From Heterotrichella gracilis (Eukaryota > Sar > Xanthophyceae > Tribonematales > Xanthonemataceae), in NCBI GenBank assembly GCA_032358255.1, contig JAULBX010003221.1, positions 62,001 through 126,000 on the forward strand: a DNA stretch of 64,000 nt, in the 5' to 3' direction. Below, piece after piece: positions 449 to 57,741 of the stretch; within the stretch, counting starts at the first letter, position 1, and each line of letters opens with the position of its first letter. The translations under genes were made by a program, and so were the position numbers. A model generated the notes under the pieces. It ran no database searches. It saw nothing but the letters and a program-made list of their open reading frames with translations, and was not told the origin of the DNA.

Positions 449-485
449 ACCTTGGCCTGTTGCAGCACTGCTGTCCTTGTGCTCC
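449..485 (-). repeat. Decayed copy of a downstream exon edge
   Basis: The stretch reading (plus strand) ataccttggcctgttgcag and on to tgctcc nearly repeats 556-597, which is the 3' edge and splice donor of the minus-strand exon at 560-847. The copy lies about 110 bp beyond the real donor, inside the presumed intron. The intervening DNA is AT-rich with TATA-type dinucleotide runs. Confidence 0.7.
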
Positions 486-559
486 CGTACACCTTTAAGT
501 GACTACATATATGCCTGGTATATGACTATATATAGATGCATATATGATCACATATATAC

Positions 560-847
560 CTTGGCCTGTTGCAGCAGCCTGTCCTTGTGCTCCTGCTGCT
601 TGCGCTTGTTCTCGATCCACAGCTTCCTCTTGGCGATCTCGTCAGCTGTGGGCGCCGAGGGCACGTACCCCATCATCCTCTCACGCTGGGGGGACACAAC
701 TCGGGCAGGCACATTCCAGTCCCTCTGTGGGGCCTGGGCTGCATTTCCAGCTGGTGCTGGTGCTGCAGGTATTGGTACCACAGCTGGTGCTGCTGGGGAT
801 CCCGAGAGAGACATCGTGGAAGCTTGGAGGGGTACAACACGTGGATC
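560..847 (-). CDS. Internal exon of an unrecognised minus-strand gene
   Basis: One 288-nt (96-codon) exon is visible. On the minus strand it has a clean acceptor (ctctttccag) before 847 and a donor (AAG|gtatat) after 560, and it is open throughout. The encoded segment is Ala/Pro-rich at first, then reads RDWNVPARVVSP, then MMGYVPSAP, and ends in a charged helix with KRKLWIENKRKQQEHKDRL, likely coiled coil. I do not recognise the family. The remaining exons were not found: upstream ones would lie above 850 and downstream ones below 450 or before the window. The repeated exon edge at 449-485 supports this being a real exon, because such copies accompany real exons throughout this window. Confidence 0.5.
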
Positions 848-2718: not shown

Positions 2719-3065
2719 CCCGCACCGCCCTCCAATGCCACAGCCGCCCCGGAAAACTTCTTAAGGCCCACAGACGGCACCTTGTGACTCCTGATGCGCC
2801 CGCCACAAGATATATGCACCAGCAGGTCAGCAGAAAATCAACAGCAGGAACAGCGCCTGGATTGACACCAATGGCCACCTGTATCAGCAGACGCTTTACA
2901 AACCCCGGAGGCTGGTGTATCATGCCAGGCGGAGGGTACCTGAAGCCCCGGAAAGCATTGCAATCCACTGCCACCGGGCCCACAGCACTTTGTGACCCGC
3001 ACCGCCCGCCAAAGCCACCTACGCCACAGCCGCCCGGGAATTTGTGGCCCACAGGAGAAGTCCCA
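2719..3065 (+). repeat. Decayed copies of the terminal exon of the 56-aa gene
   Basis: At about 2746-2790 and again at about 2931-3060 the sequence repeats the end of the preceding exon: gagggtacctgaagccccgg echoes gagcgctacctcaagccc, and the stop region ctttgtgacccgcaccgccc recurs three times (about 2711, 2785 in weaker form, 2988). The last copy is followed by ccacagccgcccggg, also present after the first. Confidence 0.6.
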
Positions 3066-3882
3066 GAGGCGTTGCATTGACAAGTTCCTGTGGTCCCGGG
3101 TTGCATCAGGGTCGGCATTGGACATGGAATGGCAAAGCATGTAGCGCATGCATGGCGCCAGGGGTGGTATTTTTTGCATTCGCTATGGGGATATTGCAGC
3201 CAATAGAAAACAATCCGTGACCTTGTTGATGGGGACCAGTGCGTATTTTCCTATAATTTTGGTGCGCTGGTATGGTTTAGGGTTTAGGGTTTAGGGGTTT
3301 AGGGTTTTTTCTTATAATTTTGGTGCGCTGGTATGAGACTTTACAGCAAATTTACACTGTTATCTCAGAGCCTGCTTCCATGAACAGCTATTATTGGCTT
3401 TGAAACAATAGTCTTGGAGCTACTGAAGGGCGAGTGCGGGACGCCTTGTATGGTGTGTGGTCGCTCATGTCTGGCTGATTGACCAATGACATGCCGTGCC
3501 TTACAACGTAGATTTAATGTGTGTGGCACAAGATGAGGAGCTAGGTGTCAGCCATATTGCACTGCGTGTCTTGCCTGAAACCTGCCAAAAGGGCACTTTC
3601 GTGCCAACAGCCTTTGTATGGGGCAAAGGGACGTGGGGGAAAGTAGGCAACGGGGGGGACATTTTAGGCTGACTTGTCGAGGCTCGCGAGCTTTCAGCCG
3701 TTGCATATGTATCGGTTGGCCCAAATGCACAGCACATTCCCATAACAAAGCAGTTGTAAAGCCTGCAGATCACACACAAATAGATAGCTCTCACGTAGCT
3801 GTCGAACTCCCTCGCACGTTGACATCAGCTGACGGTGCATCGACCCTAGCCAAAAGCTTCCGCAACCTTGTTCCCGCTCAAG
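3066..3882. other. Intergenic; telomere-like tract; upstream region of the FabZ gene
   Basis: No gene is recognised. A run of TTTAGGG units lies at about 3277-3308, bounded by two copies of a short AT-rich sequence (cttataattttggtgcgctggtatg, about 3249 and 3310). The last few hundred bases are presumably the fabZ 5' region; no clear core promoter element could be assigned. Confidence 0.5.
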
Positions 3883-6800
3883 ATGGCGAGCATTGTAACC
3901 AGCAGCCAGTGCGCGAGGCCCTTCTGCCCTGTGGCAAAGCCAAATCACGGATCTGGGCACAGCCGTGGCGTTGCATCATCGTCCACGAGGCATCTGGCCA
4001 AGCCATGCCGGATGACAGTACGGGCTGCAGCAGCAGAGGAGGAGTCTGCCCCAGCAGCCCCCGACGTGGTCACCACAGGTCCCAACTTCAAGGCCGCCAA
4101 GGAAATTCAAGAGATCATGAAGATCTTGCCGCACAGGTGATGGCTGTTGGTAGCGGAACTGGGGGATGGGTCAGTCACTAGCCATGCACAATGCATGCAA
4201 CAGGAGCGCATATTGACATGTTTTCCTGAAGCAAGATCTTCTATAGACCATAAGCTTGTTCACCAGAGCTGATCTTTGATAAAAAGGAGTGGGTGGCACT
4301 GCCTGTGTGGTTTGGTGGGTGACAAGGAAGGATGTCATGTGGCAACCCCCAACCTTGTCAAGCACAAAACATACAGGCTCACCTCACAAGTACAACTTAT
4401 AATTAGCAGACCATGCGCATTCCTAAAGCGATGTACTTGCAACATATTCTGCCCACAGCTGCCCCACGGTGGTGGGCATCCATGCATGCATCCATCCCTG
4501 GCCTATTTTTCTGCCACATTAAGAGAAGGGCAGCCTGTGACTCTAGTGCAGACCACATTGCCTGCAATTAAATTTGTGCCCCCTGGATGTGCCAGCATCC
4601 TCATCCAGCTTCCAGATACCCGCCAATGTGCTTCGAGCCAATCCCAGTTACCCACCCCCTGCCTGCCTGGTGGACTCGAGCGATTGAGCTTGAAACTGGC
4701 AAATAGAGACCAACTTGGCTGCAAACTAATTTTGAGTACTGTCTTGGTATGCCGGCATCCTTATCAGAACAACCTTATCAGATACCGTGCATGAGACCTA
4801 TTTTTCAACCCATGCAGGTTCCCTTTCCTGCTGGTAACCGGGTGTTGAAAAAACTCTAAACCCTGAAGCATAAAACCATGTCTCTTTGACCCGCGCAGGT
4901 TCCCCTTCCTGCTGGTGGACCGTGTGATCGAGCTTGAAACCGGCAAGTACGCTGTCGGCTACAAGAACATCACAATCAACGACAACTTCTTCCCAGGGCA
5001 CTTCCCACAGCGCGCCATCATGCCAGGTGAAAAACCCTACACGCAAACCCTAACCCGTCGACCTACACCCTAAAGCGTGAAGGAAAACCTCTACCCAGGA
5101 TAGTAGTCCCGATAGGCCATCATGCCAGGTACAACCCTTGCTGTAGGGCTTGCTGGGAGGGTTTAGGGCATGGGGACATTTCCTCCCAGGTGGCTTGCGT
5201 AGGGGTATAGGGTTAAGGCTGCAGCATGACAGGCTGATAAATGGGTGCAGTGATGCAGACTCAGCTGAAGTCAGCAATAGGGTGATACGCTAGGGTATAC
5301 AAAAAGGATGGTCATTGGCAGCAGTGCAAAGGCACAGGGGCACTAGGAAAGGGCAGCAGCAGACTACAAGCTTCAATGCACCTCATTTTGAAGTACTTCA
5401 AAATGATATTGTTATCTTGTTTATTGTCGATTAAATCCAAGAGATGTAATTCATAGTTCTTTTAGTAAGCGAGGTGAATTCCTGTAGCAGCACCTCCAAC
5501 ATTTTAATGAGCCCGGGGTGGCTCCCTCTTGACTGTCTCAAAAGTTCCTGTAAACCTTCCTGGAAGAAAATCAGTGTTGCTAAAATTCAGCTCTTAAATA
5601 TTGAATGTTGAATACATTTAAATGGTTGGCAAAATGTATTCAATGTAAATTATTGCTAAATTAATCAGCTCTGCACCTCCAAGCTGATCTCCACCTTGTA
5701 TCCCAGGGACTTGTGATTAAATTTATATTTAATAAATCAATCAATACTATTATATAGTTCATATTAAAAAAACAAAGGTCTACTGCTCGCACCTCTCCAA
5801 GCTGGTTTTTGTGTCCTTCTGTGCCCCAGGGACCGGTTGCGGCACCTCAGGGATTTGCTGCTCGAACTCGGGGTGCTTGATGGACACCACATCCAGCTAG
5901 GAAAGGTGCAAGGTGCATTGTTACCTGATAGTACATGCAAGTAGTCGAACGGTTGACCATGCCTCCAGGTGTAGTCCAAGTGGCGGCACTTGCACAGCTG
6001 GGGGTGTTGTCGTGATCGATCTAGATGCCCAAACCCTAGATGCTGTGCCCTAAACCCGAAACCCTAAACCCTCAAGATGCTTTCAATTGTGCTCCAAGCA
6101 GGGGCCATTGCACAGCAGAGGGGGATCACCATGAATGAATCACATGCCTGAACTCTAAACCCTAAACCCTAATATGTGTCCTTAGGTGTTGTTCAAGTGG
6201 AGGCACTTGCGCAGCTGGGTGGCATCGTCATGATCGACCTGCTGGTCTGACCTCCAAACCCTGAACCCTAATACATGTCCCTAAACTCTAATGCGTGTCC
6301 TCAGGTGTTCTCCAAGTGGAGGCGCTTGCGCAACTGGGCGGCATCGTCATGATCGACCCAGCGGATGACGCATCGCAGAACAACTTTTTCTTCGGCGGGG
6401 TGGACAACTGCCGGTGGCGCAAGCCCGTGGTGCCCGGCGACACCCTGGTGAGGGTTAGGGTTCAGGGTTTAGGGTAATTTCTTGTGCTTCCGTGGGGTGG
6501 ACAACTGCCGGTGGCGCAAGCCCGTGATGCGCGGTGACACCCTGGTGAGGGTCTTACTGCCATGAACACCGTGGCAGGGTGCATCAGCATGGAGGATCAC
6601 TTTGTACTGGAGGGGGGGTTGGCGCTGTCCCGGGGGGGCCAGTGACGCAATGGTGAGGCTTGTCACGGTGCGGTGTAACCCTGCGCATGCGGCCACGCAA
6701 CCACCCGCCCACCCAGCCCCCCAGCCCCCCTACTTTGCCGCTCCCCCCGACAGATGATGCGCGTGGGATGTGACCAAGTTCAGCAAACCCTGTACCCTGA

Positions 6801-7266
6801 ACCCTAAACCCTAACGGCCGCCTCCCCCTTTGCCCCCCCATGCAGATGATGCGCGTGGACGTGACAAAGTTCAACAAACCCTAAACCCTAAGTAATAGCC
6901 CACTCAGCGCCCCCCTTTGGCCCCACCCCCCTGCAGACGAGACATGTGGACGTGACCAAGTACAACAAACCCTAAGCCCTGCACTGTCACCCACTCAGGG
7001 CCTCCCCTGTGCCCCCCCTTCCCCGCAGATGATGCGCATGGACATGACCAAGTTCAACAAACCCTAAACCGCAAAACCTCAACCCCAAACCCTAACCAGT
7101 CACCCACTCAGTGTCTCCCCCATGTGTCCCCCATCCCCTGCAGATGATGCGTGTGGACGTGACCAAGTTCAACAAGCGCTTTGGCATCTGCAAGATGGAT
7201 GCAAAGGCCTATGTGGGCACTGACCTGGTGTGCGAAGCGGAGCTGACCCTAGTGATGGGCAAGTGA
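3883..7266 (+). CDS. fabZ: 3-hydroxyacyl-ACP dehydratase FabZ, plastid-targeted
   Basis: This enzyme removes water from 3-hydroxyacyl-ACP in the type II (plastid) fatty-acid synthesis cycle. Four exons (3883-4136, 4899-5026, 6305-6447, 7144-7266) join in phase to give 215 aa. Residues 1-50 are Ser/Ala/Arg-rich with few acidic residues, which fits a chloroplast transit peptide; the mature part begins near VRAAAAEEE. The family core is clear: [35 protein letters not shown] with the catalytic His of the FFPGHFP motif, then [10 protein letters not shown] with the catalytic Glu, and [10 protein letters not shown]. The product ends soon after the last strand, as in bacterial FabZ. The start is the first ATG in frame. 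All three introns carry repeated fragments of flanking exons together with CCCTAAA tracts (listed separately), and another copy follows the stop. Neighbours are unrelated in function. Confidence 0.93.
4665..4851 (+). repeat. Two decayed copies of fabZ exon 2 inside intron 1
   Basis: At about 4665-4712 the text ctggtggactcgagcgattgag, then cttgaaactggcaaatag, follows exon 2 (gtggaccgtgtgatcgag, cttgaaaccggcaagtac) but with an in-frame stop. At 4812-4851 catgcaggttccctttcctgctggtaaccgg repeats the exon 2 acceptor and first codons at 4893-4920 and runs into a degenerate CTAAACC tract. Confidence 0.8.
5036..6300 (+). repeat. fabZ intron 2: telomere-like tracts and three partial copies of the exon 3 start
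   Basis: CCCTAAA-type units occur at about 5036-5075, 6034-6075, 6150-6177 and 6255-6285. Between them are decayed copies of the exon 3 acceptor and first codons (real exon at 6305): about 5967-6020, 6099-6135 (weak) and 6185-6245. The 6185 copy keeps the acceptor and matches almost base for base as far as gcatcgtcatgatcgacc. The 5280-5960 part is AT-rich with no recognisable gene; several short AT-rich stretches there look like old insertions. Confidence 0.8.
6448..7143 (+). repeat. fabZ intron 3: copy of the exon 3 end and four copies of the exon 4 start
   Basis: 6489-6556 repeats the last ~60 bp of exon 3 with its donor (ggtggacaactgccggtggc ... caccctggtgagggt). Then at about 6750, 6843, 6935 and 7027 come copies of the exon 4 acceptor and start (cagatgatgcgcgtggac, gtgaccaagttcaacaaa), each followed by ccctaaaccc-like units. 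The true exon begins at 7144. Spacing is about 90-115 bp. Each copy keeps the acceptor AG except the third, which is degenerate. Confidence 0.9.
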
Positions 7267-7354
7267 GGGCGTAATAATGCTCCCGGGGAGTTCGCCATGC
7301 GAGTCATGGCGGGAACAATGTGGAAGTCCAGGGGGTGTGCTGCTGCCTTGGGGA

Positions 7355-7457
7355 TGCGCTATTTCTACATTGGCATTTGCTACATGAGTGCCAAGGCCTA
7401 TGTGGGTACTGACATGGGGTGTGAAGTAGAGCTGACGCTGGTGATGGCCAAGTGCGG
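7355..7457 (+). repeat. Copy of the fabZ last-exon 3' half, after the stop
   Basis: About 100 bp here (caaggcctatgtgggtactg ... gctgacgctggtgatggcca) duplicate 7184-7270 with roughly 80-85 percent identity by eye. The copy lies 90 bp beyond the stop codon, so probably in the 3' UTR. The stop codon itself has changed (tgc in place of tga). Confidence 0.85.
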
Positions 7458-7591
7458 GTGCACAATGCTACCAGGCTGGCAAATTGAGGGCCTCGCCAGC
7501 ATAAAACATCCGGCATGTGGGTGTGCACGGCATGCCGGATGCCGATGCTGGTACAGCTGTGTCCCAGATGCACACCGGCTGTGTCCCAGAT

Positions 7592-7630
7592 GCACACAGC
7601 AATGCTGCATGATGCAGCATTGCTGTGTGC
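7592..7630. repeat. Perfect 39-bp palindrome
   Basis: Two 19-nt arms (gcacacagcaatgctgcat and its exact complement) are separated by a single G at 7611. It overlaps the second unit of the short direct repeat just upstream. It could form a cruciform or, if transcribed, a hairpin; no transcript is shown. Confidence 0.95.
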
Positions 7631-11700: not shown

Positions 11701-14451
11701 ATCAAAATACGTCGACGGGAGTCCCCATTTGGTGGGTACTGCATACAACCCCTCCTTGCAGCTGAGGCACCTGTTTAGCCTGAAGAAGCAAACCGCGGGT
11801 GATGGGGAGCGGGTTCATCCGTGCGTGGAACATCACAGATTCCACATCTCTGATGTCGTTGCGGCGACTCCCAATTTAAATTTGATGAAAAATTGTGAAG
11901 GAAATAGGCACGACCCCCGAACTACAGCAATTGCAAATTGTTTAAACAGGAAGTACTGGACAGCATAAAAAACGGTATCGTGCTGCAGGGGCATAGGGAC
12001 ATTGCAGGGGATGCTTACAGTGGGGTTGGCTACACGTGCAACAAGTGTGGGGCAGGTCCAGCATCGGGGTTTGGGGTTTGGGGTTTAGGGTTTGAGGTTT
12101 AGGGCATCACGCACGTGTCGCATTTTTTGCATCCCTGGGGGCAGGCCCAGCAAAAGGGGGTGCACTTCTCTAACCCCAAGCCAACAGCGACCAGGTACGT
12201 GCGGCCAAACGAGACCATTGTAGGAAAGTCAAAGGACCCCTCATATATTATACCGTCTTGGGGTTTGGCTATGACGGGCCTGTAGCAAGTCCACCGCACC
12301 TGCGGAAAGACAAGTAATGAAAAACGCTTGGTCATATACAAGCATTAAACACAATACTTATCAGAGGGCACCAGATGTATTGGGTTTAAGTGGAATAAGT
12401 ATAGGGGTTTAGGGGGGCCTCAAGCACGTGCATGCCACTTGACATACCAAAAGTTGTACAACACGAGTCTGGCTTAGGGCTCAGAAGTATGGGCACACTA
12501 CTTTGGATACGTGGTTCCTGCAGGACGACGCCGAGTTTAGGGTTTAGGGTTTTAGGGATACGGGCGCACCACTTGGTTCTTGCGGCACGTCAATGGATTC
12601 TTGTATTTGGCGTACAGCGTCACGCCTGCGTGAAGGTCTCACCGTTAATTGAGTATGGGATTAATCCTATGGAGTATTAGAATATCACAACATGGAAATA
12701 TTCCAAGACAAAGGCGCATGGGATGCTTGCAAACCTCGGCGTCTGCACCGTTTGGCAAAACAAGCTCTAGGCGCCACACAGATCCCGTTGGACACAGTGC
12801 AGTATACCAATCAATTTACGAACAATTGTTTTTTAACAAAACATTTAAATTGGCCATCTACACATCTAGTCACAACTACCAAATTTAAATGTTGTCAGGG
12901 CCCAGTGCTTTGCATGCATAGTCGCGTGTGTGCGTACAGGGCGCCCTGCATGCGTCGCTTGAATTGGCCGGCTGCTAACCCTAAACCCTACTGCCTAGTC
13001 AGGGACAGGTGCTCAGGGAGGTGCCCCTCAACCCCTCAACCCTTAAACTCTGATGCCTACTGAGGGACAGGGTCTCAGGTGGCACGGCTGCACAGCATGC
13101 TTTGGGCACCTTTCAAGGCCACGGCGCGTGTGACGGGTTTTGACCCAAGTATTTTCTTGGTTACCGCAGCGCCGTATCTTGCAATGTTGACAATCTCCTT
13201 CGCGTTGTACAGCCTCCCCTTGCGTGACACAAAGGTGAAGTGGGTGCACTTGGGGGTGGAGGCGCACAGGGCAGCTACCTACAGAGGGTGAACAGTGGGT
13301 TAACAGAGGTATAACAGAGGGGAACTAAGGGGAGATTTATGCAAAGGTGCTGTGCAAAAGGATCACGATGTTGGTGTTGCCGGTGACATTGATCAGCCGC
13401 TAGCTAGCAGTATTATTGATAGTGATAGTATTCAATAGCACTTTGCGGTGTTGCAAGCTAGGTGTGCAAGCACAGATACTGCCTGCGAGACGTCTTCACG
13501 CAGTTGCCTCCACAACAGTGACTAGACTAGACGCGTCATTGGGAGCCCTAGACACTGGACCCTACACCCTAAACCAGTCTAGCCACTCGAGTCTAATCAC
13601 ACCTCCTTCAGCGAGTCCTAGACCCTAAATTCTCAACCCTGGACCCTGAATATACATTCCTATACCCTACATTTCTAACGGGGCTAGGTACACGGGGCGC
13701 ACCTCCTTGAGCGAGCCAGTCAGCTTGCATGCTGGGGATTTCTTGCCGCACCCCCCATGGATGACGCACGTAGAGTTGCACTTGGTGTAGTCAATGGTGA
13801 CGTCAGCAAAGGATGCGAAACAGAAGCTTCCACTGCAGACCGTGAACCTGTCAGAGGCCTCCACATCTGCAACGCCAAAGGGGTTTAGGGTTTAGCGGTG
13901 AGGGTTTAACAAAGGTGACAAGGCACGCACGGTGTTGGTGGGGGCTGGTTGGTGGAACCTACAGGTACCACTAGCTGCAGGTCACCACGTATGAAACTGT
14001 GGTTGGAGGTAGAAAGTGGCTGGGAGTGCAACTAGGTAGAGTGCACATAGGCAGAGTTTGCCTTGGCGTAGTGTGTGTGTGCAATGCAAGAAAGGGGAAC
14101 TACGTGCACCGTTGTACTTGTATCATTTGCTAGCCTAGGCCTAAGGTATCACTGGACCTATAGCCTACCAGTTGGGCACAAGGCAAGCCTGCAGAGACGT
14201 GCAAACACAAGTGTATGCAAGTTCACGGGTGCTGCAAAGCTTCAACGCTTCGGAAGTGGATAGCGTTGAGTAAGTTGAGTCAGGAATACAACAACCAATC
14301 TGGGTAAAGAGGTGGGTGCACGACACGTACATCCCTCTCGGTTGTCGCTGCCGAAGGTATATGATTGGCACCACGCCTTATGCTGAGTGGTTAGAAGCAT
14401 AAGCCAGAGGGCCCACGTGAGGCGAAACCCTGTCCTTGCCCCTGAAGCCAT
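8770..14451 (-). CDS. Secreted Cys-rich protein, N-terminal PAN-like region, family unknown
   Basis: The first exon codes for a good signal peptide (MASGARTGFRLTWALWLMLL, cut near AWCQ). Phase-consistent exons on the minus strand: 14451-14331, 13866-13703, 13278-13165, 12299-12199, 11867-11771, 11738-11687, then 11218-11053, 10426-10214, 9779-9567, 9231-9111 and 8957-8770 (TAA). The exon or exons joining 11687 to 11218 are unresolved; a candidate is near 11440-11395. Exons 2-3 have paired Cys and the pattern LCASTPKCTHFTF, resembling a PAN/Apple fold. A later exon is strongly Cys-rich (CEDQRGCC, CDPFFEDCCSSCPG). No TM segment is seen near the end (last residues VFGRPAAL), so it is probably released or part of the cell wall. 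About 520 aa in all. Unlike the other long genes it carries few obvious exon-edge copies. No function can be assigned. Confidence 0.6.
12066..12105 (+). repeat. Degenerate telomere-like tract (TTTAGGG/TTTGGGG)
   Basis: Repeated ggggtttggggtttggggtttagggtttgaggtttaggg. It lies in an intron of the minus-strand secreted-protein gene, so it reads CCCTAAA/CCCCAAA on the sense strand. Similar short tracts lie at 12537-12556 and, in the opposite orientation, 12975-12990. Confidence 0.85.
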
Positions 14452-30844: not shown

Positions 30845-31050
30845 GGTACCCTAAACCCTAGCGAGGAGGAGGCCACCGGAGGTGTAGAGCCACCGCTGCA
30901 CAACTACAAGATGAGGCGCAGACCAGGTGAATGGTGCACAAGTCTGGGTTGAGGTGCCTGTCAAGGCGAAAAGGTGGTTGCAAGTACGTTTTTCAAGGAG
31001 CCGTTTCAAGGGTTCAGCCAATAGTACCACCGCTTGTAGCCCACCAAGGT
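30845..31050 (+). repeat. Two copies of the aquaporin 1 C-terminal codons after the stop
   Basis: After taccctaaaccctagc, the text gaggaggaggccaccgga, ggtgtag (30862-30884) and later gtagcccaccaaggtgtag (31017-31052) repeat gaggagcccaccaaggtgtag at 30826-30844. The copied stop codon is kept. Confidence 0.7.
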
Positions 31051-44900: not shown

Positions 44901-46371
44901 CCACGTGGACATGTGCGTGTACGAGGATCCCGAAATAGTCAGCGCGCTGTGCTTGGAGAGGGTGCGTGCGCACCCAGGGGGCCAGGTGCCCCACTCCCTC
45001 CTGCACCGCCTGACTATCCCCCTGGATGGGTCAGCCACCACGCTAGGTACGTGGGTGCAATGACATAGATGAACAAGGAAACAAATAGAATGTAAAGAAA
45101 GAAGGGTGGGCATTTAAAACAAATGCAATTGTTCCCTCCTGGATGGGTCGGTTTGGTGTGCAGGTGCAACAAGAATGGCAGAGCATGAGATTGCCTCTTT
45201 CACGTCAACAACGCCAATCAGCTTAAACAAATTCGTTTGAGGCCTGCCCTTGCGAGCTTTTAGGCGGGCATTTACCATATTCAGTACATACTACAAACTT
45301 ACTACTGCTGTCAGCACTTATGTTTAAATTTTGAACCTCAAATATGCCATGCAACAACATGTTCACAGCTGATAAGTGTTTTTTGCATGGCACATGTCGC
45401 TCACCATTCTCCACATGTCTGTCCCCCAGGCTCCCCCCAGGCCCTCATTTCCGACGACTCCTCCTACGGCCACCACATGGAGTTCCCATCTGTGAGCCCT
45501 CTGGTGCGGGGGCGAGCCTACCGCTACACCTATGGAGTCACCTGCGTGCGCCCCACCAACATCGCAAACGCGCTGCTCAAGGCGGACGTGGTGGATGGGA
45601 CGGTCAAGGTGGGACCCTAAACCTTAACCCCGTAACCCTAAACCCTAAAATTGACATTGCCAACAAGCTGCATAAGGCGGACGTGGTGGAGGGGACGGTG
45701 AAGGTGGGACCCTCAACCCTACGCCCTAAACCCTAGTCAGTGAAGGTGGTGGTCTGAACCCTCAACAGCCATGGTGGGGTGCAAGCGTGGATAGGGAGTT
45801 TAATGAGGTTGCATGCACGCAAGCAATGGGATTAGCTTGGCAGTCAGTCTAGCAACCTATGGAGTCACTTGTGTGCGCCCAACCTACATTGCCAACGCGC
45901 ATCTCAATGCGGACGTGGTGGATGGGACGGTCAAGGTGAGACCCTAAATCCTACACCCTCGACAGCAAGGAGGGCTGCAAGTGTGGATAGGGAGTTTGCC
46001 TTATTCAGCAGCATGCATACCAGCAAGTAGCCAGCTGACCACTCAGGTAATCTGCCAAATGGTGCTAAGCACTTGCGTATCATGCCAATAACTAGCTAGC
46101 CCTTTTACATCAGAAAATACTCACTGATGCCTTTCGCAACCTGGCGCAGGTGTGGCACGAGCCAGGGATGGTGGCAGGGGAGCCGGTGTTCATCCCCTCT
46201 CCGAACTCGCAAGGGGAGGATGATGGCGTGGTGGTCACAGCAGTGGTGGCTGCCTCGGGCCAAACCCACCTGGTGTGCCTGGATGCCGCCACGTGGCAGC
46301 TGGTGGGGAGGGCGGTGCTGCCATATGGCTTGCCCTATGCATTTCACGGCAGCTTTGTGGCGACTCCCTAA
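41937..46371 (+). CDS. Carotenoid cleavage dioxygenase, CCD8-like
   Basis: A non-haem iron enzyme that splits carotenoids or apocarotenoids with O2. Ten exons (41937-41983, 42240-42511, 42697-42832, 43015-43160, 43483-43568, 43823-43912, 44269-44532, 44824-45046, 45430-45608, 46150-46371) join in phase to give 554 aa; an in-frame ATG at 41904 would add 11. The N-terminus (SVSAAHPHALPHNSSKVSST) looks like a transit peptide. The four iron-ligand His are present in family context, near residues 244 (TTAHP), 294 (WVHDF), 360 (VFHYVNAFES) and 547 (FHGSF). Other landmarks: YFIRNGPGVF, HLFDGFAMLAKF, TDNASVNVIP and GEPVFIP...EDDG. The TDNA and FDG..ML blocks recall CCD8, the second cleavage step of strigolactone synthesis in land plants, but that function is unproven here. 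Intron 2 is GC-AG (ACAG|gcaagc). Exons 8 and 9 have partial copies in introns. Confidence 0.9.
44604..44680 (+). repeat. Partial copy of CCD exon 8, 215 bp upstream of the real one
   Basis: cccctccccagaccaccac, then attcactgcacccaccatgt, ttgtgttccacgatgtgaat repeats 44812-44880 at about 95 percent. It keeps a strong acceptor and an open frame including the iron-ligand His (VFHDVNAFES), then meets a possible donor (CAG G|gtgaaa). If spliced in as an extra exon it would shift the frame. Confidence 0.92.
45609..45945 (+). repeat. Two copies of the CCD exon 9 end, with CCCTAAA tracts
   Basis: 45655-45703 (aagctgcataaggcggacgt, ggtggaggggacggtgaag|gtggga) and 45855-45937 (acctatggagtcacttgtgt ... 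gatgggacggtcaag|gtgaga) repeat the exon end at 45526-45614. Both keep a donor. CCCTAAA units lie at 45616-45645, 45708-45735 and 45939-45955, that is, directly after each donor. Confidence 0.92.
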
Positions 46372-47766: not shown

Positions 47767-50106
47767 ATGGCAGTGGGACGCTATCTGCTCACTTTTGGGC
47801 TCCTGACGGGGAGCTCCACGGCAATGACCTTTGCGTGGTACTATCACCTCAAGGTATGGACCTGCCTTGGACTCAGACAAGCGAATCGAGTGCCTTGTGC
47901 ACGCAACAGTTTTGTTGTTCAAGCACAAACGGTATGCGGTCTGCGTGCGATTGGAAGTGGGTACCTGGGGTACACGCATGCATATTGGCGTGGCCTTTTC
48001 AGCTACATGCGTGCATGCCACCGCAACAACGTGCGTGCAACCGGGTCGTGGCTACACGAAAGTTGGCAGATGTGCTACGTATTTTCTTTGCATACGACAT
48101 GAATATGGGCGCCGTTGCAAAATCTTGCATGTTTGCATGCATGCTCACCCGATACCCTAAACCCTAAACCACAGCTTTTAGCCAATGCTCCGGAGCCTCC
48201 TGCGCGACAAGGGCATGTATTGGCAAGGGGTATACAAGTTAAATTTACTTAATAATAGATAGACTTTACTTTATAATAGTCAATTTTTTATACCCCTCGG
48301 TATTGGCGCAGCGCGGCGCACTCTTTTGTCAGCAAAATTGCTCCACTATGAAAAGATGGTAACTTGCAGTTTGATTTGTTGCAGAAGGAGCACTGGCCGC
48401 TGTACGTGGCCATCCTTGCGTCGTGGGGCATGGCGTTCTTTGAGTACTGCTTGCAAGTGCCTGCCAACAAGTAAGCGGGTGCCAGGTGCTATGGGCCACA
48501 TTCCTGGGTGAAGCTGTGGAATTTCACAACCATCTGGACGCAATGTATACTTGCACACCCTGCAGTGCACACTGCACAATTGTATAATTTGACATCATCT
48601 TGTAATCAGGGCACTGACCTTGGGCCTTTCTTATCGCGATGGATACGTTCAATTCACTTAATTTTCAGTTCACGTAGGGATGACAGAACTTCTTGAACAA
48701 TTTTTAATTCAATGAATTTTCAATCAATTGCCTGCAAACTCCGCTGCCTGCAGGTATGGCTACGTTGGCAACGGGGGCCCCTTCACTGCTCCCCAGCTGA
48801 AAGTGATTGCCGAGCTGATGTCCTTTGCCGTGTTCAGCGTGTTTTCAACGGTGGTGCTGAAGAACAAGCTGCACTGGCCTGACATCGTGGCCTTCGCGAT
48901 GATCATACTAGGTAAGCCAAGAATCCACGCTCTACCTGTCAGTGACATGAGCACGAGTGCATTGGTTGTGAAGTAGAGTGAACTTCAAGGAGCCGGCTGG
49001 CCAATGCACAAGGTTATGGACAATTATTGGCTGCTCACTTTACCGAGTCGGACTACTGTAGCAGATTCTGCAACTAAATGTGCATCATTCAAAAGCCAAT
49101 TTGGTCCTTGCAGGTGTGGCGGTTTCCCTCATCGGCAAGGAGCTTTTTTTCAAGAATGAGGGCCAGCCTCCCATGGTCCCGTCCGCACACATGCTCGAGG
49201 TCATGAACACCACGGTCAACCAGCCCAGCCAAGCGCAGATGCATGCTCTAGAGGGCACGGTGCTGAGTGGCTTGACACCCCAGCCAGACGTCAACGGCAC
49301 CAGATTGCACCCGGAGGACCGTGTGTCACAGGCAAGGATGATGTCATGGGATTGCCACACCATTGGCCACAGTATTGGCCACACTGCGTTCTAGGATTAA
49401 AACCAAGTACTCAAAGTATCAAATACCAGATTGCACCCTGAGGAACGTGTTTCACAGGCAAGGATACATGAGGTCAGGGTGCAGGAAGTAGGGCATTGCC
49501 ACGCCATTGGGCACACTGCGTGCAAGCCTAGAATTGAGTACTCAAAAGAAAAATACATCAAATTGTAGCGCACCCATGAACGGTAAAGAATGCCAATGTA
49601 AGAATGTCAATAGTTTAGTGGCACAAGGAGGAGAAAGAACAGAAATGCCTTCCGCATGTGTCATTGTTCAGCCTCAACCAATAGTGCATTATATTGGCAC
49701 ATTCTACGCCATCCGTTCTGAATACTTCACCGCATTGCAACTGCAGGGAAACCCCAGCCATTCTGCTGACATTGAGCTGGCTGCGTTCGAGCAGAGGCGC
49801 CTACTTGGAAGGGATCAGTCTGTCGACATGGAAGTGAGGCTGCGCAACCACAACAGCAAGCCCGCTGAAGCCGAGGAGCAGCCGGTGGTGGTGTCAAACT
49901 CCAATTTGGAAGCCACCAGTTTGCGGAGGAGGGGAGGCGCATCAGAGCAAGGGCAGGAAATGGGGCATCGGATATCCATGGAAGGGAGGGAGTCACAGGG
50001 TAGTGGGTCAGTGTCTGAAGGGGTGGCCAGGGTGCTCGACGTGATCCTGGAGGAGGTGGAGAGGTCATCGTCAGTAGATGCTGGGAATCCATCAGCCAAT
50101 TCTTAA
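47767..50106 (+). CDS. DUF486 (DMT superfamily) membrane protein with long C-terminal tail
   Basis: Five exons (47767-47853, 48385-48470, 48754-48911, 49114-49331, 49747-50106) give 302 aa, all phases matching. Residues 1-125 are a DUF486/DMT small-transporter-like module: TAMTFAWYYHLK, ILASWGMAFFEYCLQVPANK, APQLKVIAELMSFAVFSVF, and a last helix ending in SLIGKELFFKNEG. In bacteria this family is a stand-alone four-helix protein of about 110-120 aa with unknown substrate. Here an extra ~175 aa hydrophilic tail follows, rich in Ser, Glu, Gln and Arg (MEVRLRNHNSKPAEAEEQPV, RSSSVDAGNPSANS), probably facing the cytosol and possibly regulatory. The last intron is GC-AG (CAG|gcaagg). The exon 4 end and the start of that intron are duplicated at about 49425-49560. 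Because the tail depends on the GC-AG intron, the alternative is a read-through that stops after 24 more codons at 49394. Confidence 0.83.
48155..48172 (+). repeat. Short CCCTAAACCCTAAACC tract in DUF486 intron 1
   Basis: Two perfect CCCTAAA units plus flank, sense orientation. No exon copy was seen directly beside it. Confidence 0.9.
49300..49560 (+). repeat. About 130-bp direct repeat of the DUF486 exon 4 end and intron start
   Basis: 49303-49425 (cagattgcacccggaggacc, gtgtgtcacaggcaaggatg ... tactcaaag) and 49428-49552 (cagattgcaccctgaggaac, gtgtttcacaggcaaggata ... tactcaaaag) are side by side. The copied GC donor (CACAG|GCAAGG) is intact, so two equivalent GC donors are available. Confidence 0.92.
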
Positions 50107-50589: not shown

Positions 50590-53500
50590 TCAGCTCTGCT
50601 TCTGGTACACCACCCAACAGGCGTTGGTGGGGACTTTGAGTCCCACCATCTGCTCGATTTTGCACGGTGGAAGCAGGTGCTGGGGATCCCCAGAATGGCC
50701 TCCACAGGGATCGCTGGACATTGGCGTGCCATTGCTTGTGTGGCCTGGATCAAGCTCGAGAGCTTTGAAGGACGACAACAGCAATGCCACCACCAGTGCT
50801 ACCTCCACCTCAGCGAAGTATCGGCCAGGGCATCTGCACACAGAAATGCACCTTCAGGAAGCAGCTACAGCATTCATAGTTATAATCAGGGTGACAAGGT
50901 CCGGTAATGACTGTGGGGTTTGCCCCTTGCATCCTGTCATGATCCACCTCGGACACCTGCACTTAATGCTATCAGTGCCAATCTGCGACTCAGTGCTCTT
51001 GCCAGTTAAAGGAACGCTAGAAAGGGAGCGCGGTTGTAAAATGTGATGTCGAGTTTCTGGCCTTTGTAATACTTTCAGTCAGCTGGGTTAATGTACATTA
51101 CGCGAAGGAGCACTGCCTAGGGCAGCATCCTCACCTGTACTTCCCTCCTCCAAATGCCATCCCCGCGATACCCCCCACCCCAGGGATTGCAGCACTGTCC
51201 CCCACACCGAGCATGGTGGTCTGGCGTGAAGGGTTGAACAGGTGTGCATCAGTGCCAAACAATTGGCAGTCATGGTGTGTCTCAAATGGGGAGATGGCAA
51301 GGAGGGACCCCTGCAAAGTGACACATTGCTACATCAGAGTTGCGGGTGTGCAAACTGAGAAGTGTCAAACAACCGCAACTCAATTGCAGGCCATGTCAAA
51401 TGATACAGAAATAATACAGCATAAGCAGGTGCCCAGCTTAAGAAGTACTATTTGTGATTGTACAGGAATGTATGCCATTATGCATGGGCCACATTGAGGG
51501 AAACAATCCTTCAAGCAGTGCGATACACCTAATGATAAAGGTAATTGCATCCCGTGCGGATCTGTAAAGGCACAGAAACGCCGCCCAAAGCGCCTTACCT
51601 TCTTCACCATGACATCACCCTGTGGGGCAGGTATGCAGATATTGCCCATCGCCATGCGCACATCAATGCACAATGAGAAGAGTCAACTATGGAAGAAACG
51701 CAAATAATTGAAAGTTGTATTATATTCCAAATTCTTGTTTCAAAATACGAAAATTAAGTAATAGTGTGACTTTCACACTAGAAATGCAATGACAAGGTCC
51801 TCACCTTCGTCACCATCACATCACCCTGTGGGGCAGGTATGCGGATGTTGCCCATCGCCATGCGCACATCGATGCCTGGGCTGCGCAGCCGCAACGCCTC
51901 TGAAACGCACGCTGCCAACAAGCTTGACCGGTCTTGCGCCAGCTGGATGCAAGCTTCCTGGGTGGCTTCCGGACCCAAACCTGAACCCGCTGCCTTCTCC
52001 AGCTGGCTGAGTTGCTGCTGGATTTGCGCCCGAATGGGCTGGTTTTCAGGCAGCAGCAAGAAGGATGTGGTCCAGAAGGTGGCAGGCACTGCGTTTGCCT
52101 GCAGAATCGATTGCCCCAAGGTTACACCCTGTCAGATCATCCCTGCATCGAACCCATGTCAGCCCATGCACACACAACAAACCCTAAATCCCAAACCCTA
52201 AACCTTGTACAGACAGGAAACTTTACCTTGGACCATGCACATACAACAAAGTGTACACCACTGCAGCACACTTCACTGGCAGTGATGTAATGTTGAAGGT
52301 TTTGATGATCATGCAAGACGCAATCGTAAACTCGGCAAGTTGCATTGCATGCACGCCCCTTACCATGGTTGCCCACAGCACAGCCAGAAGGAGGTTGGGC
52401 ACTAATCTGTCAGGCAGGTCGCACGCCTGAATCACCTCACCAACCACAGTCCCCTCGAAATGGCCATGTACGAACCCTTTCCTGCAGCAATAAATGACAC
52501 CAATGGGTCACCTGAAATAAACTGAGGAACGGTAGCATGGGCAGGGCTGCAACAGGCAACTGAGGCAATTTGCACATGTAAGCAACTTATATATACCTTC
52601 ACGATGCAGCAAGATTAGCAGCCATCCACATGGGGGCAATATCCTGGTACCAAACAAATAGCAATATCTGTAACCATTACAGCAGCTGCAAAAGTTGACT
52701 TTTCATTTATAATCTTGTTTACATAAATGTAGTCCTGCTTGCTAGTTCTGTATTGCCCTTTGCTACCAGGCATACTCTTTAGCAAATTATCGCCTACAGG
52801 GTTGCAACATGTTGCGCCCTAAGGTCCTGCTGCATTGCAAGCACCCCATGCAAATCCACTCACCTCAATGCTGCCAGTATGATGGCCCTGGCTGCCGTGA
52901 AGGTAGGCTGGAACAGGTGCGGGATGGGGCTGGCCGCCAGCTCAAACGCATGGTCAAACTGGAAGAAGGCCCGTTGAAGCACGGGTACATCTGTGCTGTC
53001 TACAAAGCTTGTGCCAAACAGGGTTTGCAGTGCCGCTTGGAACACAAGGTCCTTGGCTGTTTGGTACAGCTCAACCTGCATCCCATGCAGCACACAAATC
53101 CATTGTTATTGTGTTTTAACACACAGAAGCTCGTGGCATTAGGTGTGCCAGGTGCTTCCAGATCCACCAACATGTCCAAACAGACCTTGTCTGAGTCATA
53201 ATAATTCAGGTAAATCATATTCACAACCTTATAAGCATGATGGAATGCCGTGCATTACAAAGTACCCACCTTCCCTGTTCTAGGCCATGGTGCTATACCG
53301 GTGGCCACTGCAGCAGCCACTTTCTGTGCATGGACATGGAGGTTGGAGGGCGCAAGCAGCGCCCGGATGGTTTGCAGCAGCTTGAAATGTTGCGGGAAGA
53401 ACAGTGCTGATGGCAGTCCTAAGATGCGCTGGGTGAACTGCTCTGCTGCCGGCCTGAAACAAATTGACCAGTATAATTGGGGGAAAAAAGCATTTCATAC

Positions 53501-54618
53501 GGTATGTAAAATGTGAAACTATTACAATGCGTGAGCTGCTCCGCAGCTGGCCTGAAACAAGGTGGACCAGTTGATTGTGCAAAAGAAAACCGCCAATTAC
53601 AAAGTGGATCATGCCCCAAGGCACTATGCACAGAAGAATGCCCCCAAGAAAAACAAGCGCCCACACCCCAGTAATTTCACAGAGTTTTGCCAAGTGGAAT
53701 CGACATGCAGCCACGCATATTCGCTTAAATTGCGGGATGCATCTACGAATTCTGGTGGTACCACCCAGAATAGCGACCACTTCTCCTACCTGAACGCAAT
53801 GTCTGTGTCAGCTGCAGTGAAGAACATCTTCAATGCTGGCGGGTGGAACAGGAACACCATTGGCACGCCCACCAGGGATAGCCGGAACACCTCACCCTGC
53901 TGGTGCCTGCACCGCTGGATGAAGCGGGAACCATGGCGCAGTGACAGCACGTTGCCCACAAGGGGTAAGCCGGGGACCAGTGGCGCTAGCGTCGCAGAGG
54001 TGGCCTTCTGCGCCTGGAGGGCTGCAGGGCACAGGCAATTTAGGGTTTAGGGTTTCGGTTCTGTCGTTTGGGCCTGCAGGGCTCAGGTGCGTTATGGGTA
54101 AGGGTTTAGGCCTGCAGAGCAGCAGGGCACAGCGTTTTAGGGTTTGTGGTTTGGGCCTGCAGAGGTTGCAGAGCCATTCAGTTTGCGGTGTGGGACTGCA
54201 GAGCTGCAGGGCACAGCGGTGCGGGTTTATGAGGGTGCAGCCCCGGCTGAGGTCCAGGGTTTAGGGTTTATCAGGGTGCAGCCCAGGCTGAGGTGCAAGG
54301 TGTAGGGTTTATGAGGGTGCAGCCCAGGTTAACATATATGTACAGGACAACGTCCTGCAGATTGACCTAGCTGACGCAAACCAAGTTATGTCGGTCTAGG
54401 TTGAGTGCACCCAATGGGGTTTGAGCCTATCGGAGTACGCAGTGGGTAATGGGCAGCGCCTAAAGGTCCAGATAAGCCCCGGAGGGCAACACTCGACGTG
54501 TTGCATGTACAGCATCACAACTATTCCAGCTTCACTCACCTGAGAACACTGCCCATACCAGACCAGCCAGGCACACTGACAACGCCACTCGCAGCCACAT
54601 GCTCAACATGGCATCCAT
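50590..54618 (-). CDS. Cytochrome P450, CYP7-clan-like (CYP7/CYP8/CYP39 type)
   Basis: A haem-thiolate monooxygenase. Eight exons (54618-54540, 54021-53790, 53453-53270, 53075-52864, 52481-52364, 52098-51805, 51310-51135, 50833-50590) join in phase to give 512 aa, a normal P450 length. The N-terminus is a signal anchor (MWLRVALSVCLAGLVWAVF), followed by a Pro-rich hinge (LAPLVPGLPLVGNVLSLRHG), typical of ER P450s. The ExxR motif is EALR near 342-345. The haem loop is FGGGKYRCPGR with the ligand Cys near 433. The I-helix reads ANAVPATFW instead of the usual A/G-G-x-D/E-T, matching the proton-relay change of the sterol/bile-acid CYP7, CYP8 and CYP39 families; LGLPSALFFPQHFKLLQTIR also has that flavour. 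A sterol or oxysterol substrate is therefore plausible but unproven. Exon-edge copies lie in introns 1 and 6. Confidence 0.9.
51595..51670 (-). repeat. Copy of the P450 exon 6 end
   Basis: Plus-strand caccatgacatcaccctgtg, gggcaggtatgcagatattg, cccatcgccatgcgcacatc repeats 51813-51872 with about 90 percent identity. The sense donor is kept (AAG|gtaagg), about 210 bp downstream of the true one. Confidence 0.92.
52176..52205 (+). repeat. CCCTAAA-type tract in P450 intron 5
   Basis: aaaccctaaatcccaaaccctaaacc. On the sense strand of this minus gene it reads TTTAGGG, against the usual bias in this window. Confidence 0.9.
54022..54330 (-). repeat. Tandem array of acceptor-edge copies and TTTAGGG units in P450 intron 1
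   Basis: The block gcctgcagagcagcaggg or its variants (around 54074, 54112, 54157, 54189) and ggtgcagcccaggctgaggt (54233, 54273, 54314) recur every 35-45 bp, interleaved with tttagggtttaggg, gttttagggttt and gggtttagggtttat. They resemble the exon 2 acceptor region at 54011-54036 (ctggagggctgcagggcaca). Confidence 0.8.
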
Positions 54619-55264
54619 CCGTCAGTGCAGTGCTGCGCGTCTCTTCAAGTTAGGGAGGCATTCAGACTTGAAAAGGGGGTGTCAACAGTGAACAGTACAA
54701 GGGGAGCAGCCCAAGAGGTCTTTGCGCCGAGTATGCATGCATATAGGGTGGGGGAACGGCGTCTAGGCGCAAGCGCTACAACTGCCAGGCAACAGTTTGA
54801 TAACTTTGCTGTTCAACACTTCGCATATAGCATACTGCTGGGGTTGATAGTATTGGCGAAGAAGCCTGGGTCAGCTAGTCTTTGGGCTGGAAATAAGCAG
54901 GCTTGCCACGTTGCCTGACATCATATCCAGTTATTATTACATATGTTTTCAAAGGCCGCTCACACAAAGGTGTGTATACTTGTGAGACTCCTTGCCAGCC
55001 ACTGTCACTGTGATAACTGTATCCCATAAAGCCCCGAAGCTCAGACCCGTGTGACACTGTTCACCATATTTAAGCCCTGAAGTTCGAGCTCTGCCCATCG
55101 TTTTCGTCTTGGTTTTTGTTCAAACTTGCGCAACTCCCCTGTAACTGTGCGGCAGGTTAATTGCTTGTATACATCACACCTACATCAGGTCATTGATCGT
55201 ACCTCAGGTTTGGCTGTGCACTTGCCTGTTCCACTCCGCCATCAGTTTGAAAAAGGAGTTGGAG
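54619..55264. other. Divergent promoter region, P450 and FHA-parvulin genes
   Basis: About 650 bp between divergent start codons. No telomere-like tract, exon copy or gene is seen. Core promoter elements were not identified. Confidence 0.4.
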
Positions 55265-57741
55265 ATGAGCTTTCAGCCTCCTGACTGGGCTTCTCAGCCG
55301 TCCAGAGTTGCAACCCTTGTGGTACGTGGCTATTGATTGGAACCTTTGCGTTTTGCACGAACAAGGCTGGAGGGTGTTGTCGCATCGAGTGGAGATACGA
55401 TGCATGCATGCATATGCTTGCACTCTTGTAGGGTTACGAGGGTTGGCTGAGTTGAACTGAAGAGAGTCGAGGAGCTTGCTTTAACTAACTCAGATTATTA
55501 GTATGCGGCGGGCTGTTGCACCTCGACACCATGCAAAACCCTGTCACCTGCCATGCCATTCATCCCAACTCACATACCCAATGCCCCCTCCTCCTTGCAA
55601 CCCAAACCCTGCACCTAAACGCCAAACCCCCTGCCAGGTGCAAGACGCTACAGGCGGCCAGGTTGAGACCATCCCAGTGGATAGCAAGGCCTGGTACCTG
55701 CTTGGGCGGGACGCCTCAAAGTGCGATGTCGTGACCACGGCCAGTGACAGCTCACGCATCCATGCGGCCCTGGTGCACCACAAGGACGACAAGATCTACC
55801 TCATTGACCTACAGTCGGTGCGCACCATATGCACCATTAGGGTTTAGGGTTTAGGGTTTGGGGCTGCACCACAAGGACGCCAACGGCTACCTCTTAGACC
55901 TCCAGTCGGTGCGCACAATAAGCAGCCTAAAGCACAACATGTAGGATGAATACCCTAAACCCTCAAACCTTAAACCCCGCATGTTGAGATAAGACCTACC
56001 GCATAGACCTCCAGTCGGTGCGGAACATGTGCACTATGCCACCATACTCGACCATACACCCATACAGCGACAGCTTCCGCACTGCTTAGCCTTGGGTAAT
56101 GTCTTGCCTCATGTATCCCCAGCTGACCATTCACATATCCCCAGGTGTCCATTCACAACATGTTTTGTCCCCGTGCAGACCCACGGCACCTTTGTCAACG
56201 ACACCCGCCTGGCGCCACACAAGCCCACCCAGGTGACCAAGGGGGATGTCATATACTGTGGGGCGCCCGACCGAACCTTCACACTCAACTGCGAGACCTC
56301 GGGTGGGTACTCCGGGCAGCAATGCCCTGGTCTGGCATAGGGGATGGATTGCCGATGGCGTGGTTGATGTGGCAAGCCTTTAAAAGCATCTCTGCACTAT
56401 GGCGATCTGCCTGTCTGATCACATCAATGATCACAAACACCACTGGATGTGGGCCTATGGCAAACAGTTGCTGCGGGGCAATGACCCATCATTTGTTGTG
56501 CTGTTCTGTAGTACGGCATGTCTTGGAGCGCATTCAAGCAGCAGACGTAGTCTGTTGCTGGGAGACGGATTACATGAGCTGACATTGGCATTTGCTGCAT
56601 GGATGTACATGCGTCTTTGCGTGGCTGCAAGAGAGTTGCAATTGCGCTCGTCAAATTCTTAAGTTTTAAGACGACCATGCGTGCACCGCAGGGGTGAAAC
56701 GGCGGTCAGACCACGAGGGCACGGCGCTGGATAAGTGGCCCAAGGGGACTGTAACAGCGTCACACCTACTGGTGAAACACAAGGGGTCGCGGCGGCCGTC
56801 TTCATGGAAGGAGAGTGTGGTGACGCGCACGCAGGTGAGCACGCCTTTGACAAAAAACTTTATAACCCTATAACCAGCAGTAGGCGCCACACTAGAAGTG
56901 ATACACCCACATGCAGGCAAAGTAATTTGTAACTTTTTTACCGTGCACATGCTAACACCCAGGGCATGTAGGTGTTCATGCTTAAAAGGAGCGGGCATAA
57001 CCAAAGCGCAAAACACCCATTTGTGTGTCTAATTATCAAATAAATGGAGTTCAATGTAGTTTGAACGTAATGACCGGGGATCAAATGCAGACCATATTTC
57101 TGTTATTAAGCAAGACTCTCCCCAACCCTCGTTGAATTATTGATCAAGGATGTTTTGATGCTCATAGTCCTCATCTCTACCCTGCGTGGCCCTCAGGAGG
57201 AGGCGCTTGAGATGATCGTGCGCTTCAGGGAGCAGATCGCGTCGGGCCAGGTGGACTTTGCAACCCTTGCGGCACAGGTTAGTGGGCGTGACTTGCATGC
57301 ATGCATATGGTGCTGCTGCATCAATGTCAAGCTGATACATGCATGCATCCTATTGTGCATGTGACCCTCTGTAGCAGTGATTGTCGTAGTGGGGAATTTA
57401 ACCCCGCGGGGAATTTAACCCCTGCAGGATGTAGCCAACATCTGCATCACGTGGGGTGGACAACCATGCGCATCAGGTGGCTTGGGCAACAATTTGCACC
57501 ATGTGGTCTGGCAAGCATTTGTCCAGGCCATGATTTGCCGAGAGGTTTTCTCACCTGTGTGTTATGCATTACGCAGGAAAGCCACTGCAGCAGCGCGCGA
57601 CGTGGTGGGGACCTCGGGGAATTTGGCCCCGGCAAGATGCAGCCGGTATTTGAGCAGGCTGCATTTGCGCTGGCAGTGGGGGAGATGAGCGGCCCCGTGT
57701 TTTCAGACTCAGGGGTGCATATTATATTGAGAACAGCCTAG
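55265..57741 (+). CDS. FHA domain fused to Pin1-type parvulin prolyl isomerase
   Basis: Six exons (55265-55321, 55638-55817, 56179-56302, 56692-56834, 57197-57277, 57577-57741) give 249 aa, all phases matching. Residues about 15-118 are an FHA phosphothreonine-binding domain: YLLGRD (Gly-Arg near 42), SSRIHA (57-62) and THGTFVND (80-87), with a typical last strand. Residues 138-249 are a parvulin isomerase close to Pin1: catalytic-site His145 (ASHLLVKH), Cys199 (SHCSSA), Ser241 and His243 (DSGVHII). The phosphate-binding basic residues are kept ([12 protein letters not shown]), so pSer/pThr-Pro bonds are the expected substrate. Human Pin1 uses a WW domain where this protein has FHA, and plant Pin1 has neither. 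The protein probably docks on pThr sites and isomerises nearby pSer/Thr-Pro. No targeting signal. Exon-edge copies are in introns 2 and 5. Confidence 0.92.
55833..56032 (+). repeat. Two copies of the FHA exon 2 end with TTTAGGG and CCCTAAA tracts
   Basis: Directly after attagggtttagggtttagggtttggg comes gctgcaccacaaggacgcc, aacggctacctcttagacct, ccagtcg|gtgcgc (55862-55917), a copy of 55768-55822. A shorter copy (taccgcatagacctccagtc, g|gtgcgg) is at 55995-56022, after accctaaaccctcaaacc. Both copied donors survive. Confidence 0.92.
57385..57445 (+). repeat. Decayed copies of part of parvulin last exon
   Basis: ggggaatttaaccccgcg, then ggggaatttaacccctgcag, gatgtagccaacatctg follows ggggaatttggccccggc, aagatgcagccggtatttg (57615-57652). 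The first half is repeated twice. Confidence 0.65.

Follow-up and report, generated by a model that had tools for sequence, protein, structure and literature searches.

Introduction

Schiml in 2016 and Vaughn and Bennetzen in 2014 are reported to have worked on tandem duplications of the kind that arises from paired nicks. In mammals, short interstitial telomeric sequences are described as insertions made at double-strand breaks, and target duplications at some of them (6 of 130 rodent, 4 of 25 primate, and 3 of 66 horse loci) have been ascribed to staggered breaks (passages of PMC2246262 and PMC7215372). Fill-in of 3' overhangs by CST-Pol alpha-primase yields tandem duplications (passages of PMC8355091), and in rice, where most often an insertion is a tandem duplication, such duplications are overrepresented between 50 and 200 bp and become rarer beyond 125 bp (passages of PMC7971508). 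Here we describe a 64-kb stretch of the genome of the alga Heterotrichella gracilis (contig JAULBX010003221.1, C34:62001-126000; the window) in which exon edges have been copied repeatedly into adjoining introns. An earlier note, made from the sequence alone, had pointed out these copies; it overlooked that the spacers between them are often plant-type telomere repeat (TTTAGGG) and that the spacing is two-sized.

Like the mammalian telomeric insertions in the passages cited, the structures consist of a short internal tract, sometimes with a target duplication, outside exons. Unlike them, duplication accompanies 28 of 81 tracts, the copies are about 75 bp long and exon edges are favoured; the structures are also read from one genome and not from a comparison of alleles. 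Duplications from paired nicks and CST-Pol alpha fill-in share with ours the direct orientation, a size of tens to about 125 bp and, on the reading preferred below, staggered breaks, and theirs involve telomere fill-in enzymes; telomeric filler and exon-edge placement belong to ours and do not occur in the passages on theirs. As in intron gain by tandem duplication, duplication across an intron-exon boundary copies splicing signals, but the cases worked through here lengthen existing introns. Introners, as presented in passages of PMC9860276, likewise change introns en masse through insertion and are known in algae. They form repeated families with target duplications of 3-9 bp, whereas the median copy here is 75-77 bp and no family body was found for the two fillers searched.

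No open-access paper was found, judging by titles and the beginnings of abstracts, that describes duplications with telomeric filler, either at the edges of exons or as a cause of introns growing; the subscription literature lay outside the scope of this search. The phenomenon is not mentioned in the intron and repeat passages of the Coccomyxa genome paper (PMC3446292), nor in passages of an Auxenochlorella paper (PMC12636532) and of a review on interstitial telomeres (PMC6410037). Each ingredient is known from elsewhere; what looks new is how dense and how large the structures are and that they sit at exon edges.

Materials and Methods

The genome comprises 68.5 Mb in 903 contigs. Counts were made on a 264-kb set, consisting of the window and 20 other 10-kb loci (contigs 1-20, positions 20001-30000) picked without regard to content. 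A further 26 loci (the selected loci) were taken at exact three-fold TTTAGGG sites among the first 100 matches listed. Genes were modeled ab initio with a hidden Markov model (HMM) gene finder self-trained on the 264 kb. Local repeats in the window were identified by blastn self-comparison, and exon-copy events by exon-versus-neighbor alignment. In the probe test, 50-bp probes were searched for a same-strand copy within 1 kb with a score of at least 20.

The HMM models contain 458 introns with sharp consensus sequences at the donor (CAG/GTGAG) and acceptor (TGCAG/G). In the window the gene finder recovered the genes that had been named in the earlier note. Those names were backed by Pfam for six of nine stretches (MIP, RPE65 for CCD, FHA, rotamase, TPT, and ephrin-receptor-like); three further window proteins were all matched, to DUF486, FabA-like, and P450.

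Copies of exon edges

Copies of exon edges had been claimed throughout the window, at least 25 in number, on the same strand as their source and mostly 0.1-1 kb away. Self-comparison revealed local same-strand repeats over the whole of that range. Local pairs numbered 111 in direct and one in inverted orientation; adjacent copies are direct, as in staggered-break tandem duplication. We counted 22 distinct exon-copy events in the window, which confirms the claimed number in order of magnitude, and 53 in the 20 other loci. These 75 events comprise 32 donor-edge, 19 acceptor-edge, and 15 internal copies, while an acceptor-to-donor span (whole exon) was copied in only nine; the process is thus mostly not whole-exon duplication, as had been proposed. 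Placement was indeed close, 63 of the 75 events being spaced by 85-135 or 183-233 bp.

A comparison of exon edges with control positions, run much as the earlier note had proposed, gave a strong excess at exon edges. Copies were found for 47 of 351 exon ends (13.4%) and 40 of 355 exon starts (11.3%), counts that are somewhat inflated because a predicted decoy exon may score twice, once from each side. The corresponding figures were 6 of 167 for exon middles, 4 of 362, 9 of 369, and 7 of 290 for the first, last, and middle parts of introns (together 20 of 1021; 1.1-2.4%), and 2 of 107 for intergenic probes. Of 2001 probes in the same test, only 2 had an inverted copy. Outside the window, in the 20 loci, 65 of 521 edges carried copies versus 14 of 758 intron probes (Fisher p 7e-15) and 4 of 126 exon middles (p 0.001). 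Chance matches are rejected by the inverted and position controls.

Among the 33 noncoding edge copies, mismatch to the source is 8.1% at first, 6.2% at second, and 16.4% at third codon positions; frame-breaking indels are present in 11 of them and an in-frame stop in three. Both the codon-position mismatch and the frame breaks would follow from drift of the copy alongside a source kept under constraint. When duplications were simulated as uniform, with intronic filler and neutral decay, the edge-to-intron ratio was 0.50-0.63, compared with about 6 observed. This ratio and the decay by codon position reject ascertainment as the sole cause of the excess. Beyond the copied splice site, the median length of intron that still matches is about 7 bp. 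A special limit to copying just inside the splice site was considered and is weakened, since short copies and probes that demand exon sequence make the 7 bp partly an ascertainment effect. Exon edges are preferred without being essential: pairs with both members in noncoding sequence occur at window positions 3243-3335 and in loci L038 and L041.

Telomeric tracts between the copies

Eight-fold TTTAGGG was detected in 11 contigs, pointing outward in all and located at the contig start in six, and TTTAGGG was therefore taken as the telomere repeat. A gene with a telomerase RNA-binding domain is encoded in the genome. Three-fold TTTAGGG occurs at 834 places genome-wide, its reversed control at none. 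In the 264 kb there are 82 internal telomeric tracts with a length of 11 bp or more, whereas 19 classes of permuted motifs gave a mean of 0.9 (maximum 3). The telomere repeat of the organism itself is thus present as short internal tracts, the mark of short interstitial telomeric insertions. Full flanks were available for 81 tracts, 39 in the window and 42 outside. The outside density, taken from 200 kb, extrapolates very roughly to 14,000-15,000 tracts genome-wide.

Direct duplication of the flanks was detected for 28 of the 81 tracts (13 of 39 in the window, 15 of 42 in the other loci) versus 15 of 635 control positions, and inverted duplication for one. With a looser cut-off (score 14) the counts were 39 of 81 and 52 of 635. 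In the selected loci, tracts of at least 19 bp showed direct flank duplication in 13 of 31 cases, a count made without a position control and in which two of the 13 share one duplication; inverted duplication was seen in 0 of 31. By distance of the tract from coding sequence, flanks were duplicated in 23 of 47 (below 25 bp), 13 of 32 (25-60 bp), 7 of 23 (60-120 bp), and 8 of 34 (beyond).

The two copies flank the tract at a distance of no more than 25 bp for 34 of 49 duplicated tracts in the window and 20 loci (16 and 18, respectively) and for 19 of 28 tracts from the selected loci, giving 53 structures. For the 264-kb set and the selected loci, respectively, median copy length is 75 and 77 bp (interquartile 62-93 and 61-87; extremes 19-186 bp), median filler 23.5 and 30 bp, and median spacing 100.5 and 103 bp. 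Clean examples of copy, tract, and copy are window 6384-6552 and 55774-55924, and L038 2835-2857 with 84 bp on each side at 90% identity. In L015 an acceptor edge is present in triplicate, as an acceptor-exon-tract unit of about 115 bp. The structures in the window are as follows.

444-593, minus strand: donor-edge pair in an unknown gene (444-485 / 553-593), spacing 109 bp, without telomeric filler
2654-2773 / 2930-3054, plus strand: weaker repeat in upstream exons of the FabZ model, spacing 276 bp
3243-3335, no strand: noncoding copy-tract-copy, tract 3274-3307, copies about 30 bp
4656-4705 / 4902-4949, plus strand: FabZ acceptor-edge copy, spacing 246 bp, telomere-like motif in the spacer
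about 4976-5038 / 5078-5138, plus strand: FabZ donor-edge copy, copies flanking a telomeric tract (5045-5053)
6160-6239 / 6279-6358, plus strand: FabZ acceptor-edge copy, spacing 119 bp, CCCTAAA tracts
6384-6455 / 6481-6552, plus strand: FabZ donor-edge copy, telomeric filler 6456-6480
6724-7175, plus strand: FabZ acceptor-edge array, tracts 6800-6814, 6876-6891, 6967-6975, and 7059-7070
7181-7287 / 7370-7475, plus strand: end of the last FabZ exon copied past the stop, spacing 189 bp
15278-15440, minus strand: receptor gene copies (15280-15341 / 15379-15440), spacing 99 bp, telomere-like filler
15734-15969, minus strand: receptor gene acceptor-edge copies (15746-15847 / 15866-15969), spacing 120 bp, telomeric tracts
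16322-16934, minus strand: 206-bp tandem repeat, 96% identical, running into a gap of 100 N (16739-16838) and resuming after it; possible artefact or misassembled scaffold join
18329-18731, minus strand: receptor gene duplication of about 185 bp, without telomeric filler
19638-19947, minus strand: receptor gene copies (19653-19693 / 19881-19920), spacing about 228 bp
21436-22412, minus strand: receptor gene copies (21441-21500 / 22353-22412), spacing 912 bp
30821-30887, plus strand: short, weak copy of the AQP1 coding end past the stop, tract 30848-30860 between
35184-35387, plus strand: AQP2 donor edge present three times, with AAACCCT-type filler between the copies
38648-38699 / 38744-38795, minus strand: TPT transporter donor-edge copies, telomeric filler 38700-38743
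44061-44370, plus strand: CCD copies (44091-44167 / 44289-44366), spacing 198 bp
44576-44902, plus strand: CCD acceptor-edge copies (44576-44671 / 44795-44890), spacing 219 bp, without telomeric filler
45528-45958, plus strand: CCD donor edge in three copies (45559-45613, 45654-45708, 45855-45958), CCCTAAA filler
49299-49339 / 49425-49465, plus strand: copies of a DUF486 GC-donor edge, spacing 126 bp
51593-51669 / 51799-51875, minus strand: P450 donor-edge copies, spacing 206 bp, spacer single-copy in the genome
54112-54294, no strand: noncoding tracts (54136-54145, 54256-54270) with short flanking copies
55774-56037, plus strand: FHA-parvulin donor edge in three copies, telomeric filler 55834-55864, CCCTAAA tract 55952-55963
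57352-57652, plus strand: weak FHA-parvulin repeat (57352-57436 / 57568-57644), 67% identity, spacing 216 bp

Copies just past the stop codon had also been claimed; the FabZ case (7181-7475) stands, and the AQP1 instance is short and weak (score 17). The aquaporin genes are tandem paralogues (29147-30840 and 34031-36224) in which telomere-like filler follows the same donor in both; clear exon-edge copies are present there only in AQP2.

Spacing of the copies

The 75 events fall into 33 spaced by 85-135 bp, two by 136-182 bp, 30 by 183-233 bp, and 10 elsewhere. The three ranges hold 10, 0, and 8 events in the window and 23, 2, and 22 in the other loci. A smooth gamma fit expects 20 events in the trough, although events of one array are not independent. 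An annotation-free count of exact 13-mer lags (162 events) gave the same two peaks. The valley was less clean among merged events (10 of 103 at 140-180 bp) and among lags in the selected loci (7 of 68 at 140-184 bp). A telomeric tract lies within the span of 20 of 33 events of the class spaced by about 105 bp, versus 4.7 for random placement. Over all direct pairs the contrast is weaker than by size class, with telomeric 8-mers in 48 of 111 spans versus 30 at random. The 200-bp class mixes pure tandem duplications with pairs that have unmatched spacers.

Introns and splice sites

It had been proposed that the copies lengthen introns. Tract density appears to agree: it is 0.13 per kb in introns of 180-250 bp and 0.74, 1.14, and 1.52 per kb at 250-350, 350-500, and 500-800 bp, a rise that fits insertions which add length. 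Elsewhere the density is 2.46 per kb below 120 bp and 0.79 per kb at 120-180 bp, where gaps between an exon and its decoy contribute, and 0.44 per kb above 800 bp. Tracts of at least 9 bp number 130 in introns, one in exons, and six in intergenic sequence, the last count not being relied on because the gene finder separates genes poorly. On the donor side, positions +6 to +20 are modestly enriched (24 tracts versus 9.6 expected; 12 versus 3.7 in cleaner introns).

Tracts are also enriched 20-50 bp upstream of acceptors (28 versus 15.4), where the branch point would lie; CTAA within CCCTAAA resembles a branch-point motif. In 83 of 128 intronic tracts the sense strand reads CCCTAAA (p 0.001), perhaps because a sense TTTAG can serve as an acceptor. 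GC replaces GT at about 6% of predicted donors in the window and loci L005-L024, for example in the DUF486 gene at 49332.

Many copies had been said to keep a usable splice site, and the gene finder itself took several as extra exons: 44605-44668, 45674-45703, and 45903-45935 in CCD, 51599-51619 in P450, 4818-4841 in FabZ, and one of 38658-38705 and 38754-38851 in TPT. Copied splice sites can mislead gene finders, which calls for care in practical annotation. The AGGT tandem model of intron gain was not adopted as a general explanation; in FabZ the next exon does not come after the copied donor at 6544.

Origin of the duplications

The copies, the telomeric filler, their sizes, the exon-edge bias, the higher tract density in longer introns, and the neutral-looking decay can be seen directly in the genome. 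We infer from them a recurrent scar of break repair, to which we assign a probability of about 0.5; the enzymes, the staggered breaks, and the order of steps are the inferred parts. A staggered double-strand break, with opposite-strand nicks about 75 bases apart, would leave overhanging ends near an exon edge. Telomerase would then add about three TTTAGGG repeats to an overhang, and the ends would be filled in and joined, giving copy, telomeric filler, and copy. CST/Pol alpha-primase is a natural candidate for the fill-in. With the filler inside the intron, the outer splice site would still work, the extra copy would be spliced out and the intron would become about 100 bp longer. Some units may have been duplicated in tandem afterwards, and the 200-bp class could stem from break repair of this kind in which telomerase took no part.

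Several observations weigh against this scheme. No duplication was detected in the flanks of 53 of the 81 tracts. In the 200-bp class, which needs a separate account, a tract lies within 7 of 31 spans versus 7.6 at random, that is, without enrichment. Similarity runs on into the intron in 13 of 37 events spaced by less than 250 bp, as in plain tandem duplication. At least two bases are shared at 6 of 24 presumed priming junctions and 12 of 28 distal ones, with no clear telomerase register; shared distal bases may instead reflect annealing, or a unit that was duplicated in tandem when it already contained its tract. The preference for exon edges is unexplained by breaks alone. Finally, a one-step origin of the tracts would rest indirectly on flanking duplications within a single genome.

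The alternative that survives best, though we consider it unlikely, is that the tracts came first, by any route, and acted as fragile sites beside which unequal exchange or slippage then triggered tandem duplications of about 100 bp. It would account for the outer-side tract on some units, seen as stretches of at least five shared bases at 3 of 24 and 7 of 28 junctions, for the triplicate unit of L015, for filler common to AQP1 and AQP2 with clear copies in AQP2 alone, and for the runs of intron similarity just mentioned. A single tract between two flush copies, as at 3243-3335, 6384-6552, and L038, is not a direct product of tandem duplication of a unit with its tract.

Of the earlier interpretation, local and repeated same-strand copying that favors exon edges holds; template switching is less secure, as the copy-telomere-copy order fits staggered-break fill-in at least equally well. 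In a replicative version, a telomerase-extended nascent 3' end would re-anneal about 75 bases back and recopy. This gives copy, tract, and copy without a staggered break and suits the 12 of 28 distal junctions with at least two shared bases, but 10 of the 28 share none and a fixed step of about 75 bp has no reason. We regard it as improbable.

Quite improbable, in our view, is ordinary tandem duplication combined with selection, in which CCCTAAA is kept near splice sites as an aid to splicing (for example, as a branch-point-like element) and exon copies seem common through conservation of the source. The tract enrichments near donors and acceptors and the sense bias of CCCTAAA are in its favor. 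Against it stand the simulated ratio, which ascertainment leaves far from the observed one, and the position of tracts directly between copies.

A transposon or introner family, suggested by recurrent genic insertions flanked by direct repeats, is hardly credible: both fillers searched, of about 125 bp, are single-copy in the genome, which upholds the earlier claim that no transposon is involved as far as these two go, the duplications far exceed introner target duplications (passages of PMC9860276), and wherever a case was worked through, the copied splice site was that of a pre-existing intron. An assembly artefact, for which the repeat adjoining the N gap (16322-16934) might speak, is the least credible explanation, as the copies diverge, by about 6-16% depending on codon position, and loci sampled outside the window show the pattern again.

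Implications

Break repair with telomerase, as preferred above, may extend to a wider scheme, which we put forward tentatively and would sooner doubt than accept. Telomere-replication machinery would serve as routine repair of internal breaks at chromatin-defined positions; nucleosome geometry would set the size of the duplications, exon nucleosomes would place the breaks at edges, and telomerase-patched duplication would be a main engine of intron growth and a lasting source of spare splice sites. One turn of nucleosomal DNA is about 80 bp. Speculatively, the 75-80 bp of the copies can be likened to such a turn, and the 200 bp to the nucleosome repeat. That chromatin folding sets the distances between correlated breaks is described, in principle only, in passages of PMC7896024.

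Intron growth and spare splice sites are usually credited to transposons, and the process proposed here would work without a transposon body. Its signature, telomeric filler between copies of about 75 bp, is readable at thousands of sites by rough extrapolation, so that break repair and intron evolution could be dated within one genome. The two-sized spacing may link a class of mutation to chromatin geometry.

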